A stretch of 64,000 nt of DNA. Origin: Aurantiochytrium sp. KH105 (taxonomy: Eukaryota; Sar; Bigyra; Thraustochytrida; Thraustochytriidae). A model generated the notes under the pieces. That model searched no databases. It saw nothing but the letters and a program-made list of their open reading frames with translations, and was not told the origin of the DNA. The translations under genes and the position numbers were made by a program. The stretch spans positions 496,001 to 560,000 of the forward strand of contig BGKB01000008.1 in NCBI GenBank assembly GCA_003116975.1, given 5' to 3'. Shown piece by piece: positions 10,410 through 19,654 of the stretch (position 1 is its first letter; each line of letters begins with the position of its first letter).

Positions 10410-11955
10410 CTACGTTCGATTGCGCTTCATCTTGGACGCAGCCTTCTTTGCCGCGTCTTTCATTTTGTTAACAAGCCCCGGCTTGCTCTCTCCATAATCA
10501 GCGACATTACCTAATTGCGTGCTGGAAGCATTTGATTTGCGCCGAAAACCAAATAGCGTGCGGGAAGACTTGCGACTCCGCGAGGAAAGGTTGGCCGACG
10601 AGTCCCTCGCCCGCGCACTGCTAGGGGACGTTGGCGTGGTCGGCGAGGTCGGTCTGGAGGCAGGCGGCGCGTCGTGGGTGCGCGACATCTCTGCACGCCG
10701 TTGCTGAGCCTTTTTATATTTCTCCTTTGTTTCCTCATCCATATCCTCGACGTCGATCGTCTTCGATCCCTTGAACCCGTATCCCTCGAGCATTTCCTGG
10801 ATCTCTGGTGATGAGGTGCCGTCGTAGCACTGCGAGTCCTTGTCCTGCGCTCCCTTCTTCAAAAGGAACTCGACAACCTTGGTCTGGTTCATGACACACG
10901 CCCAATAAAGCGGTGTGCGGCCCGACGTTGCCTTGCTTGCGGCAAGGAACAGCTTTCCCAGCCACGTGTTGTCCATATCCTTGTCAACTCCTCGTTTATC
11001 GACCTCATCAAACTTTTTGCCTTGCATGACGAACCTTTTCAGTTTTCGCAAATCACCACGCTTTGCTGCAAGCCAAATGCTGTCATAATCGGCAAGCATC
11101 CAGTCCTCGAGACCTCCGTTCTTGACCGCGGGCTTCATGTCGACATCGACAACCGTCAGGTTGCGATCGGGAGCTCTATAGAGGCAAGTTTCGTCCCAGT
11201 ATTCAATGCCGTCCTTGTCCGTTTTCCACTCCGGCTCCTCGATCGACACGCAATTCTTCTTGCCACGTACGCGCGAGTCCTTCCAAAGACTCGACTTCTC
11301 GTACGAGGCAATGCTTACTTTGGCGCGCCGTCGCTGCGGCAAAGAATGCGTTTTCGACTTGCTCTTCTTGTTTCGCTCATCCTCGGAATCGCTATCGTCA
11401 TCGCTGCTGGCCTTGCCACGGCCTCTCTCGTCATCCGAACCCTTGTCACTGTCAGAGTCGTCGCCGTCGCCCTCGCCGGCCCCACCTCGTTTGTTGGCAC
11501 CGCTTCCACCCCGATTCGAACCCTGCTTTCCCTTGTCGTCGTTGCTCTTTTTGCGATCGCCATCGTCGTCCTGTTCGTCCTCGTCGCTACTGCGATCGTC
11601 TCTCTTCTTGTCTTTCTTATCATGTCGGGATGACTTACGACCCGACGAATCGCCGTCCGCGGCACGAGTTGGTCTTCGACGCGAGCTGTCCGAAGAGTTC
11701 TCTTCCGAAGAAGACCTTGACGACGACGATGAAGACGATGAAGATCGCGTTGATGACGTTGACGCTGACACGCTTCGAGCACGGCGGGACCCACGCTTGC
11801 GCCGTCGAGAGGCTGCATCAGAGTCTGAGCCCGACGACGAATCCAACGAAGATCCAGAAGATGAAGACGACGACGACGACGACGACGCCGATGACGACGA
11901 CGACGAACCCCGTCGCTTCTTGCTCTTCGTCGACTTCTTCTTCTTCTTCTTCTTC

Positions 11956-11988
<33 letters not shown>

Positions 11989-14900
11989 GACTTTTTGAGA
12001 TTCGCCAAATTGCGGCGCACTTCACTGCCCCGTGACTTGATCCGCTTCAAATCTTCTTCCTCCTCCTCTTCGTCGTCGTCGTCGTCATCGGAGTCGGAGT
12101 CGTCCGAATCCCAGCTGCCCTTGCCTTTCTTTCTGTTCGCCGCCGCGGCGGCTAGCATGGCTGCATTGCGCACGCGCGGCTTTCGCCGTGAATCCTCCGA
12201 GTCGTCCGAAGAGCCGCTTCCGCTCTCATCCTCGCTGCCCGAGGAAGAAGAAGAAGAAGAAGACTTTCGGCCCTTCTTGACCGAGGCCGAGAGGCTGCTA
12301 GGCAGGCGCGCCTTCGATCTACGGGCATCCTCGCTGTCTTCGTCGCTGTCCGAGGCCGACTTGCGGCTCTGCTTGAGCGCATTGGAAAGTCCACTGGGAA
12401 GCCTTGAGTTTGGCTTGGCGTCCTCCTGATCACTGTCGCTCGACCCCTCGTCGTCTTTGCTCTTCAAAGATGGCTTTCTCCCCTTCTTTGCAGTGGAACT
12501 CAGCTTACTGGGGAGACGCGCCATGGGGTTGCGCGTATCCTCGTCCTCATCGCTTTCGCTCTCGCTCTCGCTCTCACCTTCGCTGCTGCTAGAGGTAGCT
12601 TTCTTTGCTCCTTTCTTGACGGCATTCGCCAAATTGCTGGGCAAACGCTGCGTGGGCTTACCTCTGTTGGCTTGTGCGTCACTGTCCGATGGATCGCTCT
12701 TGCGGTTTTGCTTAAGTGCGTTGGAAAGGCCAGAGGGAAGTCGCGATGTTGGCTTGCGTGTAGCATCATCATGCTCGCTCTCACTCTCGCTCTCAGAGGA
12801 AGAAGAGACAGACCCCTTTTTGGCTCCATTCTTGACGGCGCTCGCCAGTTTGCTGGGCAGCCGCGATCGGGTCTGACGCTCGTCTTTGCTACTCTCGCTC
12901 TCTTCATCGCTCTTCGAGGTAGATTTACGGTTTTGCTTGAGCGCGTTCGCTAAACCACTAGGAAGTCGCGATGCCGGCTTGCGGTCGTCCTCGTCGTTCT
13001 CGCTCGAATCACTATTGTCATCGCTCCCAGAGGATGATCTCCGTCCCTTCTTTCCAACAGCATTGCGGCTGCTAGGAGGTTGAGCCTTGGACTTGGGAGC
13101 ATCGGCATCGCTCTCGCTTTCGCTTTCACTTTCGCTTCCACTTCGACTCGAGTCCGACCCGCTCTCGCTTTCCGATGATGAAGATTTCCGTCCTTGCTTG
13201 AGAGCACTTGCGAGACCGCTTGGGAGTCGTGAGGTCATCTTTGCATCTTTCTTTCCCGTTTTGCTCGACGCGTTCTCAACGTCACCATTGTCTCGTCCCT
13301 TTTGCACAGCGGCGGCCAGCTTGCTCGGCAGACGCGATTTGGGCTTCTGCACGTCTTCGCTTTCGCTTTCAGAAGACGACGATGCTTCTGTGCCGCTCTC
13401 ATCCTCGTTGGCAAAAGACGTTGTCATAAGCTTGCTGGGAAGCTGTCCCTTAGTCCTTTGCGCGCGCGCCTTGTCGTCCTCGTCGTCGTTACGACCAGAG
13501 GTTTGGGTTGTGTCATTTTCACTCTCCGAACCCGATTTGGACCCAGACTCGGACGCTTCTTGCGATCTTGGCGCGCCAAGCTTGCTTGGAAGACGGAGCT
13601 TCGCATTCTTTGCGGCGTTCGCACCAGCAATTGCACCAGCGCCAGCCTTCTTGTCACTGCCATTCCCGTCATCATCGTCGTGACCCTCGTGATCGCTTTC
13701 AGAATCAGAACCAAATTCTGTTTCAGAATCAGAATGAGAGCCAGAGCCAGAAACACCTGGAGCGGCTACAGGAGCATTCTTGGTAAAACCTTCTCCGATT
13801 TCCCTGTCCGCCAACGAGACGTCGCTCTCGTCATCGACATCATCACCATTCGCACCCTCTTCGTCCACAGCGCGAGGTGAGCCATCAGCGTTGGAGCCAG
13901 ATACACTCGATCCTTGAGATGCGTTATCGTCCGTAACGGATTTAGGTGCTGCTTGAGCATTCGTTTGGCTGGTGATTTTTTTCTGTCCTTCAGCACCAGT
14001 CCCTGGCTGCTCGACGTCGACACCTTTAAGGGACCCTTCATCTTTCTCGTCTTCCTCTTCGATTTCATCGTCGCCGCTCTCGGCCGCTTCATTCACCACT
14101 TCCACGACAACTTCGTGATCCTCGTTGACGTCGCTCTCGCTCAGCTCCGAGCCTTCCTCATACGAGCCATCCGAGGATCCATCGTCCTCTTCATCATCGA
14201 CCTCCTCCTCATCTTCGTCGTCGTCGTCATCATCCTCGGATTCGGAAGATTCATTGGGTCCATATGGAACGATGGGGCGGCGGGGTTTTTGTGCCGCATC
14301 CTTGGCTCTCCTTGCGTCAGCCTCTGCTCGGGCACGCTTACGCGCTGCAGCAGCCCTCATGCTAGGCGTCATAATTCCTGGAGTCACGACCCCAGCGGCG
14401 GCCTCATTCTCTGCGTGACTTGGGGAAGGCTGGCGCGCCTGTTCCGACTTTTCGAGACGGTTGCCAAGGACCTTTTTTCTGATGGCTTCGAGTTTTCGCG
14501 CAGTCTCCGGCGAGTTCAGCTTGACCTTGAGCTCGTAAATCAGGTCGCCCTCTCCTAAACCTTCGTCCGTGTATCCCTCTGAAGCCTCTGACGACTCATC
14601 GTCAACCTCTTGCGCATCTGCGCCAGAACGCGGCGAGCGTGCGGTCCGAGCAGCAGGGCTTCGTGACCGAGCTTCATTCACGTTTTCACCCTCGCTTTCA
14701 TCAGCACCTTCTTCTTCTTCTTCTTCTTCTTCTTCTTCTTCATTCTCATCGTAGTCCTCGTCCTCGTCCTCGTCCTCGTCATCATCATCTTCCACGTACT
14801 CGTACTCTTCGCCGTCAATCTTGATCATCGAGCGACTGCTTGTTTGTGTCGCAAGCATATCCCTGATCGACTTCATCTCCTCGAAGAGACGATGCTGCAC

Positions 14901-17570
14901 AGCCACGTGCTCGGACTGCTGAGCGTCAAGCCTTTGTTCGAGATCCCTGCAGCGCGCCTCAAGCTCCTCCTTCTCCTTGAGGGCTTCGGCCCGAAATTGG
15001 CGCAGTTCTGCCTCGGAACGGGATACCTCACGTCCTCGCTGCGTACGAGACGATGATTCCCCCTCGCCATCCTCGTTTTCGGTATCGTTCTCCGAGGCAT
15101 CGTCTGAGGTCTTGCGTCGGCGTCTTCTTCCGTCGTTTGCCGATTGGCGCGTATTACGCCAGTGACGGCCATTGTCTTCTTCTTCGTCCTCGTCGTCCTG
15201 GCGACGACCGAGGGTACCACGCGTCACTGTTGGCTTTCTTTGTCCGCTGCCACGCTGATAGTCGCCGCTCTTGGCTGGCTCACGGCCCGTGAGTTGACCT
15301 TGGCGTGGATCACCACGTGCTTGCTGGCGCGGGGTGTCGCTGGCGCTGAGAAGGGCGGCTTTTTGCTTGTGGAGTGCCATGCGAGCCTTCATGCTAGACA
15401 TTGCCGTGAGAATCTCATCTGCCTCTGCCTGGAGTGCAGGTGTATCATTAGACTCGAAAGCTTGACCCGGCGCTTGGCCACCACCGGCTTGCTTCGTCAC
15501 CTGCGAAGAGCGCTTGTAGGACGTCTTCGGAACGCGATCTTTGTGAAGGGCCATACGCGTCTTCATACTGGTCATAGCGCTAAGCATCTCGTCAACGTCC
15601 ATTTGCTTCTCACCAAGTTTGCCTCGCGGCTGCTCTTTCTTCGTTGCGACTTTGCTTTTCTTCTGTGCATCTCTTTCCTCGCTCTCTTGGACCGCTTTGG
15701 CCTGTGAGATGAACGACTTCACTTTGTTGACGATTGTCTGTTCCTTGTCTTCTGCATCGCCATAGTACGCATGTTCGCGGCGGCCCAGGGGGACCATTTC
15801 ATCGGGCACAATGACGTCTTGGAGCCCAACCTCGATCTCAAAACTTTCGTCATCATCAACGTCATCTTCCGAGGCAACTTCTGAAAACTTCTTTTCCTTG
15901 CGTGCAGGGCGGCAAACGGAGGCAGACTCGTCGTCGTCGTGAAGAATTCCAATAACATACTGTCCGTCGTCACTTCCGGGGCCAGGGCCCAGCTGAGAGG
16001 GAGGGCCTACAACGTGGTCACTCGCGACCGACGCGGCTTCATCTTGACTAGAGTGATCCGAAAGCTCGTCAAGCTGACTGTTTGCGCCTGGTCGGATATC
16101 GTCGAGCGACACGAGATCTCCGTTCTCACTGTAGTCATCAGCAGAGTCGCCTTGAAGATGGTCATTTTCGTCACCGTTTTCGTCGTCGTCGTCGTCGTCA
16201 CCCTCCTCGCTGTCTGAGCTGCCGCCAGGAAATCCGAGCCCGTCCATGTTTTCGTGGGTGCGTCTTTCGTTTCCAGATGCATTTGGTGAAAACTCAAGTG
16301 ACGAAACGGACGCGTCACTGTCACGCACACTGCTCTCGCCGTCATCGTCACTCGAATAAGAAGGGAAGCCGAGGTCCTGGGTGGACGAGGCCTCGTCGAA
16401 CCCCGTTTCCGACTCGCTCGGGCTCGCAAGAATGTCCACATCGTCCTCGTCGAAGCATTCGTTCGACTCGTTGTCATCGTCATCGTCGTCGTCCATGTGG
16501 CCAAACGCTTTCCTGTTTCCTCCAGCGGCCTTACTCCGGTAATTGCGGTCGAACTCCATTGAATCCTCATCGGCACTGCTGAGACCTTCAGAATCGACGC
16601 TGCTCCTCGACTCGACGCGCGCGCGATGCTGTAAGTGCCACATGCGGCTTTTGTTCGCAATTTCCCCAGCGGATGTGACCGATTCTTGGTCACTGGAATC
16701 CGGGACAAAACGAGGAGAGCGCGCGTGTTCTGCCTCGAGACGTTCCTTCATCGCAAGTTCGAGAAAGCCCAAGTCGTCGGTGCCATCAGCGGGAATTTCA
16801 AAGTCATCGGGGTAGTCATCTGCATTGCCGCTGAGCTGCGAGAGCAGCTTGTTCTTGGCAAGCCCTTTGCCCTGCTTCTTCTTGTTCTTCTTTTTCTCCT
16901 TGGCTGCGTCGAGTTTGAAGCGAAGCTCGTCGAGAGAAGGAAAGCCCTTGGGCGTCGACTTGCCGCAAAGCTTGCGCGCCAGCAGCACCGTCTCATCTGT
17001 GTCTTGGAATGCGCGCGTCCGTTGGCTGACGAGGCCTTGGCTCACCATCTGGGCAGAGTCGTTGCCGCCAGGAGTGTACCTGGCGTCGGGAGCACGAGCT
17101 GGGCGCTTGATAGCAGTAGCCTTTTGCTGTTGCTTTTGCTGTTGCTGTTGCTGCAATAGGTGGCCATTGTATCCCATAAATATCGAAGGTTGCGGAGCAG
17201 ACTGTTGCTTTGGCTGTTGCTGCTTCTTTTGGCGAGATGCACGCTCTTCACGCAGCTTGCGCTCGAGCACATCACGAGGGCGTGACCCGGAGTGCGACCT
17301 GGACCTGTCCGTGACCGAGGCCTTGGCGTGATTTCGGGGCGCGCGCGACGAGTCTCGAGAGCGAGATGCCTGCGCACCTTGATCCGCCTCGAGCGAGTCC
17401 TTTCTCCGCTGCGCGTACCCGAGGATCGCGTCGGGGTCTTCGAGCTCCATCTCCGCGGTGTCCTCGTCGGCGTCCGACTCGTACACAATGCCGGAGACCA
17501 CGCCGTTCCGCATGGCGTCGTCGCTCAGAGCGTACGCGGAGTGCGGATCGGCGCGGGCGTACGTCGCCAT
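10410..17570 (-). CDS. Giant acidic Ser-rich protein with RLPSxL repeats and ankyrin repeats
   Basis: A single 7.2-kb frame encodes 2386 residues. Order from the N-terminus: Gln/Lys-rich segment (about 135-175); long Asp/Glu/Ser-rich tract; two copies of a motif with SMKxRMALHK (about 655-740); coiled coil (about 848-908); acidic run (918-957); then, about 1325-1770, roughly a dozen copies of a basic motif RLPSxLxxAxKxxRKS separated by Ser/Glu/Asp clusters; poly-Ser/poly-Lys blocks and an RS-like tract; and, about 2155-2260, ankyrin-like repeats (DSIWLAAKRGDLRKLKRF, GRTPLYWACVMNQTKVVEFL). The tail is basic. Alternating acidic Ser clusters and basic motifs recall Nopp140 and treacle, CK2-phosphorylated nucleolar scaffolds, but their domains are absent. 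A phospho-regulated scaffold is inferred. ATG 17570 (MATYARADPH) is the first Met of the frame. Confidence 0.85.
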
Positions 17571-18925
<1,355 letters not shown>

Positions 18926-19654
18926 ATGCCTAAGTCGAAGCGCGCACGCGTGGTCCACCTGACCAAGACGGAGTCGAGGGGCCGAGCGCGCAAGTCGGAG
19001 CTCATGGACCTCGTGCAGCAGTGCTGCGATGAGTACAAGACGGTCTACTTGTTCTCATGCGACAACATGCGGTCGAATCCACTCAAGCAGCTCCGCATGG
19101 ACATGAAGGACTCGCGCTTCATGTACGGCCGAAACAAGGTCATGCGGCTCGCCCTGGGCAAGACCAAGGCCGAGGCGTACCAGCCTGGAATGGAGAAGCT
19201 TGCGGAAAAGCTGCACAGCGAAATGGGCCTCCTTTTCACCAACACCAAGGCTGCTGAAGTGGAGGCCAAACTTGGCGACTTTAAGGAGATCGACTTTGCC
19301 CGCGCTGGCTTCAAGGCCGACAGGGACATTGAGGTCAAGGCAGGCCCCATTGTGGGCGAGCCTTCGTCCTCGTACGAGCCTCTTCGCAAACTTATGCTCC
19401 CCGTCAAGCTCAACAAGGGCGTCATCGAGCTCGAGGAGGACCATCGCGTATGTAGCAAGGGCGATGTCCTGACCCCCGAGCAGGCGCAGGCCCTCAAGTT
19501 CTTCAACATCAAGCTCGCAGAATTCCGCGTTAAGCTGCTCTACCGCTTCCGCGACGGAGAGCTTACGCAGCTTGCTGAGGATACCATGGAAACGGAAGGC
19601 AAGGCCGACGAGGACGATGAGGACGACGAGGTTCTCGATGAAGACGACTTCTAA
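18926..19654 (+). CDS. MRTO4: mRNA turnover protein 4 homologue (60S ribosome assembly factor)
   Basis: The 242-residue protein has the uL10/P0-like fold of Mrt4. It starts MPKSKRARVVHLTKTESRGR, the hallmark N-terminus, followed by YLFSCDNMRSNPLKQLR and MYGRNKVMRLALGK, and a central insertion domain (EIDFARAGFKADRDIEVKAG, LMLPVKLNKGVIELEEDH). It ends in an acidic tail (EDDEVLDEDDF). Mrt4 occupies the P0 site on nucleolar pre-60S particles and is exchanged for P0 during maturation. Length matches the family (about 240). The start has A at -3 and no upstream competitor. It is head-to-head with the giant acidic protein and tail-to-tail with the PH-domain gene. NSA2, another pre-60S factor, lies 35 kb away. 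Confidence 0.97.
   Translation: MPKSKRARVVHLTKTESRGRARKSELMDLVQQCCDEYKTVYLFSCDNMRSNPLKQLRMDMKDSRFMYGRNKVMRLALGKTKAEAYQPGMEKLAEKLHSEMGLLFTNTKAAEVEAKLGDFKEIDFARAGFKADRDIEVKAGPIVGEPSSSYEPLRKLMLPVKLNKGVIELEEDHRVCSKGDVLTPEQAQALKFFNIKLAEFRVKLLYRFRDGELTQLAEDTMETEGKADEDDEDDEVLDEDDF

Follow-up and report, generated by a model that had tools for sequence, protein, structure and literature searches.

What kind of protein repeats a strict basic motif between clusters of acidic serines and adds an ankyrin domain near its end? The question is raised by a gene in a 64,000-nucleotide stretch of the Aurantiochytrium sp. KH105 genome (contig BGKB01000008.1, positions 496,001 to 560,000; hereafter the window). 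There, a frame on the minus strand, as are all parts of the gene described below, runs from 10410 to 17570 without a stop and encodes 2386 residues. The protein is chiefly low-complexity and rich in Ser (16%), Asp (11.3%) and Glu (9.6%), with 8.3% Lys and 7.8% Arg, and a sequence-only reading of the window had rightly described it as a giant Ser/Asp/Glu-rich protein. Our leading, if tentative, explanation is that it acts as a multivalent, charge-striped and phospho-tuned scaffold, most likely in the nucleus.

The frame itself is well preserved between haplotypes. The assembly that we searched holds 76.0 Mb in 367 contigs; the available part of the genome report gives 76.7 Mb in 512 scaffolds in its text and 86.0 Mb in a table, and suggests diploidy (PMC5924542). 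A second copy of the gene lies on contig C118, where ~29 kb align colinearly with the window at 93–96% DNA identity per block; it is most simply the other haplotype. This copy encodes 2377 residues with no stop, and both frames stay open throughout the codon alignment. Over 2368 codons, the proportions of synonymous (pS) and nonsynonymous (pN) differences are 0.102 and 0.024 (pN/pS 0.236), and the ratio remains below 1 in all 13 segments chosen along the frame (0 to 0.66, highest in residues 1–100). Base substitutions are similarly frequent inside (272/7105) and outside the frame (712/19016), whereas 15 of 19 insertions and deletions (indels) inside the frame are divisible by three, compared with 29 of 108 outside. 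Because pN/pS is below 1 in every segment and the internal indels are mostly multiples of three, the comparison indicates that 10410–17570 is translated as a single frame, or was so in the recent past. A split into separate genes, which the sequence-only reading had named as a possible refutation, and a chimeric gene are both rejected on the open codon alignment, pN/pS and the indel pattern.

Residues 1326–1771 (12258–13595, close to the 12270–13600 first proposed) hold an array of 11 [RQ]LPSxL cores, ten with Arg and one with Gln, which start at residues 1326, 1376, 1413, 1448, 1535, 1570, 1610, 1642, 1685, 1723 and 1755 and alternate with acidic serine clusters, as had been described. Nine cores continue into a basic tail that approximates Lxx(A)(L/V)KxxRK and form complete units between residues 1409 and 1771 (12258–13346), which score 26.6–39.4 bits with a profile derived from the nine themselves. 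The other two are cores only: RLPSKL (residues 1326–1331; 13578–13595) and QLPSKL (residues 1376–1381; 13428–13445). Shuffling produced at most one core per array (20,000 trials) and at most one per protein (3,000 trials). A degenerate copy, KSKAQPPSSRNAVGKKGRRSS (residues 1493–1513; 13032–13094), in which QPPSSRNAVGKKGR reads QPPS here and QLPS (QLPSSR) in the other haplotype, is supported by a profile score of 13.0 against 300 block shuffles (99th percentile 12.6, maximum 13.6). The candidate at residue 1797 scores 8.4, under the 95th percentile of block shuffles (10.6), and is unsupported. If these two are the degenerate copies meant by the earlier count of about eleven clear and two degenerate copies, that count stands for the cores and the copy at 1493; it does not stand for the tail, present in nine of the 11, or for the copy at 1797. 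Two tail subtypes had also been said to alternate. By our own labelling of ten units, which includes the copy at 1493 and excludes the two core-only copies, they do so in eight of nine adjacent pairs, with modest strength, as 5 of 210 arrangements do equally well. Tandem Repeats Finder reported no array at the unit period, just short-period runs, and the C-terminal stretch PGLVNKMKDAAKK, considered as a further copy, is unsupported (score -0.7).

Charge follows the motif. The nine full units carry a net charge of +4 to +7, the two core-only units +2 and 0, and the spacers 0 to -9, the eleventh spacer being an arbitrary 30-residue cut. The difference in charge per residue between motif and spacer is 0.42, a value equalled in 2 of 459 circular shifts of the motif mask, and charge blockiness exceeds that of shuffled sequences in both the whole gene (z 22.7) and the array (z 6.0). 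The alternating acidic and basic logic of Nopp140, which the sequence-only reading had recognized, is therefore measurable here, and its proposal of a possibly novel, phospho-switched nuclear or nucleolar scaffold finds partial support. CK2-like consensus sites, [ST]xx[DE], occur in 10 of 11 spacers and 116 times in the whole protein. The mean hydrophobic moment of the nine tails is 0.484, against 0.288 in shuffled tails, and none of 2,000 shuffles reaches it.

These features can be assembled into a mechanism. The acidic serine clusters are predicted CK2-type phosphorylation sites, and their phosphorylation would set them further apart in charge from the basic motifs. Each RLPSxLxxALKxxRK unit would be a short linear motif whose serine can start a short basic amphipathic helix, with Leu and Ala on one face and Lys and Arg on the other; we read the core serine as a putative helix cap and RxxS site. 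About a dozen copies could make many weak contacts, whether to acidic stretches, within the molecule or in others, or to a single folded partner, and might promote condensation. That the RLPSxL core is strict suggests a folded partner besides charge. The mini-ankyrin domain described below would dock the scaffold to a defined partner.

By analogy with the repeats of Nopp140, Ki-67 and treacle, we see the array as a multivalent binder tuned by phosphorylation, with the ankyrin domain as its anchor. In the available parts of the respective reports, the alternating acidic-serine and basic repeats of Nopp140 associate with disordered regions of nucleolar, snoRNP and polymerase I proteins (PMC12905727), treacle (TCOF1) has 11 central acidic repeats with basic stretches between them and CK2 sites (PMC9133508), and phosphorylation that creates alternating charge blocks raises phase separation of the Ki-67 repeats, while on NPM1 it lowers phase separation (PMC9106583). 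The window gene shares with Nopp140/NOLC1 (SRP40) the alternating acidic and basic blocks and the CK2-like sites, with treacle, as described, the alternating blocks, and with the Ki-67 repeat region, likewise by partial description, charge blocks in repeats, which in Ki-67 are tuned by phosphorylation. Unlike treacle, as that protein is described, it has an ankyrin repeat and a different motif. Unlike Nopp140, it combines a sequence-specific RLPSxL motif with an ankyrin domain and lacks SRP40_C (PF05022): the domain gave no match in the window protein at E up to 1, in a search that finds the organism's own Nopp140 at 82.4 bits. SRP40_C is above cut-off in this genome and absent from 14 control genomes, which marks the assembly as eukaryotic. 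Separate genes on C142 and C127 end in it (87.2 and 85.8 bits; cut-off 28.6) and carry acidic serine clusters, which identifies them as this organism's Nopp140, the two contigs presumably being haplotypes. With no SRP40_C of its own, in a genome that carries the domain in another gene, the window gene is in all likelihood not Nopp140, and it may act like Nopp140. The sequence-only reading had set the ankyrin domain and the LPS motif apart from Nopp140 and treacle. Nopp140 starts with an N-terminal LisH, is phosphorylated by CK2 in the cell and occurs in the nucleolus and Cajal bodies; treacle likewise has a LisH, and a Lys-rich C-terminus with localisation signals. Pfam detects no LisH in the window gene; since it detects none in the organism's own SRP40_C protein either, the start of which is LisH-like by eye only, this absence decides nothing.

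The mini-ankyrin domain spans residues 2161–2266 by our limits (10773–11090) and consists of a weak repeat, a 23-residue insert, a clear repeat and a short end element. The clear repeat (residues 2217–2241) is above the Pfam cut-off (PF00023, 22.7 bits against 21.1; 26.8 with the C-terminus alone), and a Pfam scan of the whole protein at E up to 1 returned ankyrin families only, with this one match above cut-off. The weaker stretch upstream in the chain, DSIWLAAKRGDLRKLKRFVMQG, aligns with the first ankyrin repeat of the paralogues, by alignment only. The proposed ankyrin cap at the C-terminus is thus correct in placing a clear repeat near the end, although the domain stops ~120 residues short of the terminus itself. 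The insert (residues 2194–2216; 10923–10991) was considered as an unspliced intron and is taken as coding, because no clear GT...AG pair is visible by eye at its ends and it is identical in both haplotypes. Among the best 60 of 77 matches to solved protein chains, 59 fall at the ankyrin stretch. The remaining one, internal, is a TFIIA chain (residues 1080–1152, E 0.0081) that we judged compositional, as we did sub-cut-off Pfam matches to individual segments (PRP38_assoc, E 0.036; TFIIF_alpha, E 0.02; ORF6C, E 0.48; and others). An NCBIfam scan of the whole protein gave two matches, both far below cut-off.

Among giant ankyrin proteins, ANKRD11 invites comparison. It is a nuclear protein rich in Ser, Lys, Asp and Glu, and thus resembles the window protein in size and in its Ser/Asp/Glu-rich composition with ankyrin repeats, which in ANKRD11 lie near the N-terminus; it is not known to carry an RLPSxL array.

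Closer relatives of the ankyrin domain are found in the same genome. Searched at E up to 0.001, the C-terminus retrieves itself, the other haplotype and a gene on C272. Besides its own haplotype on C18, the C272 query (E up to 0.01) hits only a gene on C139 and both haplotypes of the window gene (E 0.002). Local alignment of the window domain gives a score of 102 with C272, compared with at most 63 over 81 windows of an ordinary ankyrin protein (L034), so that the domain is closer to C272 than to L034. With C139 it scores 67 (98 without the insert), where the L034 maxima are 63 and 86. This tie is less direct, as the C139 C-terminus, searched at E up to 0.1, gave 19 matches that include other ankyrin genes and do not include the window gene. 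Profile comparison with the C272–C139 pair gave 97.4% and a score of 67.4, against 92.8% and 42.8 for the best of 27 L034 windows.

The C272 gene (L005:3813-5045; other haplotype, C18) encodes 411 residues, with two sub-cut-off Tudor-like stretches (SGF29_Tudor, E 0.0054) followed by the related mini-ankyrin domain. The C139 gene (L024:55-2751) encodes 899 residues, is charge-striped (z 17.9), and has five SR[LM]S places, then a Tudor-like stretch, also below cut-off (Tudor_3, E 0.015), then the mini-ankyrin domain. The search gave no second haplotype copy of it, unlike the window gene, C272/C18 and the SRP40_C gene. All share with the window gene a two-repeat ankyrin domain, a similar end element (GAxDxD...YGF/L) and a Ser/Arg-rich tail, which in the window protein covers residues 2320–2386 (10413–10613, read from the translation); C139 also shares the charge stripes. 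The window gene differs from them in its RLPSxL array, its 23-residue insert and the lack of a Tudor domain detectable by Pfam in the whole protein or its segments. Since C139 joins charge stripes, a Tudor-like stretch and a mini-ankyrin domain, a similar architecture, with a different motif, recurs within this genome.

No such relatives emerged for the array itself. [RQ]LPSxL is absent from C139, C272 and the organism's Nopp140, and pieces spanning the whole chain, searched against the genome with the best candidates scored, revealed no other gene with an RLPSxL array. Apart from the haplotypes, residues 761–1310 gave only weak low-complexity matches (E 1.1e-4 and 1.7e-4, around residues 894–954), as did residues 1791–2090 (E 6.1e-4, around residues 1802–1944). 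No relative was confirmed by tblastn in viral contigs (C-terminus and array) or prokaryotic contigs (C-terminus), which says little because these collections hold only viral and prokaryotic sequence. A literature search by title and abstract start, in which the motif itself was not a search term, found no such protein.

The kinship with Tudor-linked genes bears on where the protein acts. A nuclear location is likeliest, given this kinship and the Ser/Lys/Arg tracts, among them a poly-Ser, poly-Lys and RS-like tract at about residues 1860–1970 (11661–11993, read from the translation). The same two features would suit an unlikely but serious alternative, a chromatin- or speckle-linked scaffold outside the nucleolus, in which the mini-ankyrin group would be linked with Tudor-like readers, and the protein would be targeted to RNA-processing bodies by its poly-Ser/RS tract. 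C272 and C139, the closest ankyrin relatives, do carry Tudor-like stretches; however, both Tudor matches are below the Pfam cut-off, and the window gene has no detected Tudor domain of its own.

How much of the array is under selection can be judged from the two haplotypes. All 11 cores are present in the second one, the only copy against which loss of the repeats in orthologues, a possibility raised in the sequence-only reading, was checked. Amino-acid changes between the haplotypes affect 0 of 66 core codons, 7 of 131 tail codons and 22 of 247 spacer codons (Fisher p 0.006 for core against spacer; p 0.03 for unit against spacer). The core codons are synonymously mixed among the copies, with four codons for Leu-2, four for Pro-3, AGC, AGT and TCT for Ser-4, and five for Leu-6, which argues that the copies are old and not homogenised. 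Despite this codon divergence, LPSxL is unchanging across the 11 copies and both haplotypes.

Several results weigh against our scaffold explanation. The tail is missing from the first two copies, and single tails exceed their own shuffles at p <0.05 in only two of nine cases (0.009 and 0.002), the nine being related to one another. Charge blockiness is also found in C272, which lacks the array (z 6.0), and in the organism's Nopp140 (z 6.8). AlphaFold, run on the C-terminus from a single sequence, returned a mean pLDDT of 41.1 and confirmed neither the helix nor the ankyrin fold, a solenoid of stacked helix pairs. For the 18-residue unit, nonsynonymous and synonymous changes (7 : 10) do not differ from those of the spacers (26.5 : 21.5; p 0.41), and synonymous divergence is lower in units (pS 0.066) than in spacers (0.145). 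Because the unit counts do not differ from those of the spacers and unit pS is lower, we make a moderate claim of selective constraint, limited to the six-residue core.

This lack of a difference in counts between units and spacers would also be expected if the array had expanded by low-complexity drift, without a motif-specific function, and been retained for its charge alone. Degenerate and tail-less copies, as well as Ser/Asp/Glu runs that differ in length between the haplotypes, are in keeping with such drift. We nevertheless consider it improbable, as the copy number is 11 in both haplotypes and LPSxL stayed invariant while its codons diverged. The raised mean hydrophobic moment of the tails, in turn, would fit a scaffold in the cytoplasm that uses basic amphipathic helices to bind membrane or the cytoskeleton, for example through an SxLP-type end-binding motif. 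The SxIP end-binding rule is [ST]x[IL]P in basic surroundings, and SRLP occurs in 6 of 11 copies. However, the conserved part is RLPSxL, and Ser precedes Arg in those six only, which leaves the cytoplasmic scaffold with a slim chance. A divergent Nopp140 or treacle would explain the alternating acidic and basic blocks and is very improbable, given the separate SRP40_C gene with its acidic serine clusters (C142, C127), the lack of SRP40_C here, the lack of a treacle Pfam match at E up to 1, and an ankyrin domain outside the treacle description available (PMC9133508).

The phospho-tuned nuclear scaffold might also be one member of a family, known from this protist genome alone, that joins a charge-striped fixed helical motif (RLPSxL here, SR[LM]S in C139) to a shared mini-ankyrin anchor. 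Such a family would have invented the logic of Nopp140 and treacle independently while the organism retained its Nopp140, a proposal that we regard as doubtful at present. Were it true, nucleolar scaffolds would not be alone in their charge-block repeat design, which would have evolved repeatedly and, in this case, with a precise, selected motif and a folded anchor. A single protein could then show whether such arrays need a specific motif or whether the charge pattern suffices, and the paralogue, whose basic islands differ and whose anchor is related, would offer a natural control.

Other parts of the chain carry motifs of their own. The two SMKxRM copies named in the sequence-only reading are present at residues 668 and 726, in the motifs SMKTRMALHK (residues 660–677; 15540–15593) and SMKARMALHK (residues 718–735; 15366–15419). 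The pair, at 15366–15593, sits inside two copies of DE(M/I)L(S/T)AMxSMKxRMALHK; a genome search at E up to 1 gave no further relative. In the N-terminal fifth, three [DG]LGF[PL] motifs (residues 266, 399 and 444; 16227–16775) lie in an acidic context and are possibly a further candidate set of linear motifs.

The divergent neighbour of the window gene, ~1.35 kb away at 18926–19654, is a ribosomal L10 family gene with RL10P_insert, which we read as probably Mrt4-like. An AAAG microsatellite lies between the two genes (17931–18196), with a run of N at 18044–18068. Elsewhere in the genome, C72 and C155 match the PfaA model at 930 bits, below its cut-off of 1010; sub-cut-off matches to this model also occur in 11 of the 14 control genomes. 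In both haplotypes, a second match on the opposite strand lies ~5 kb from the PfaA-like one, in a frame of ~2,100 residues.

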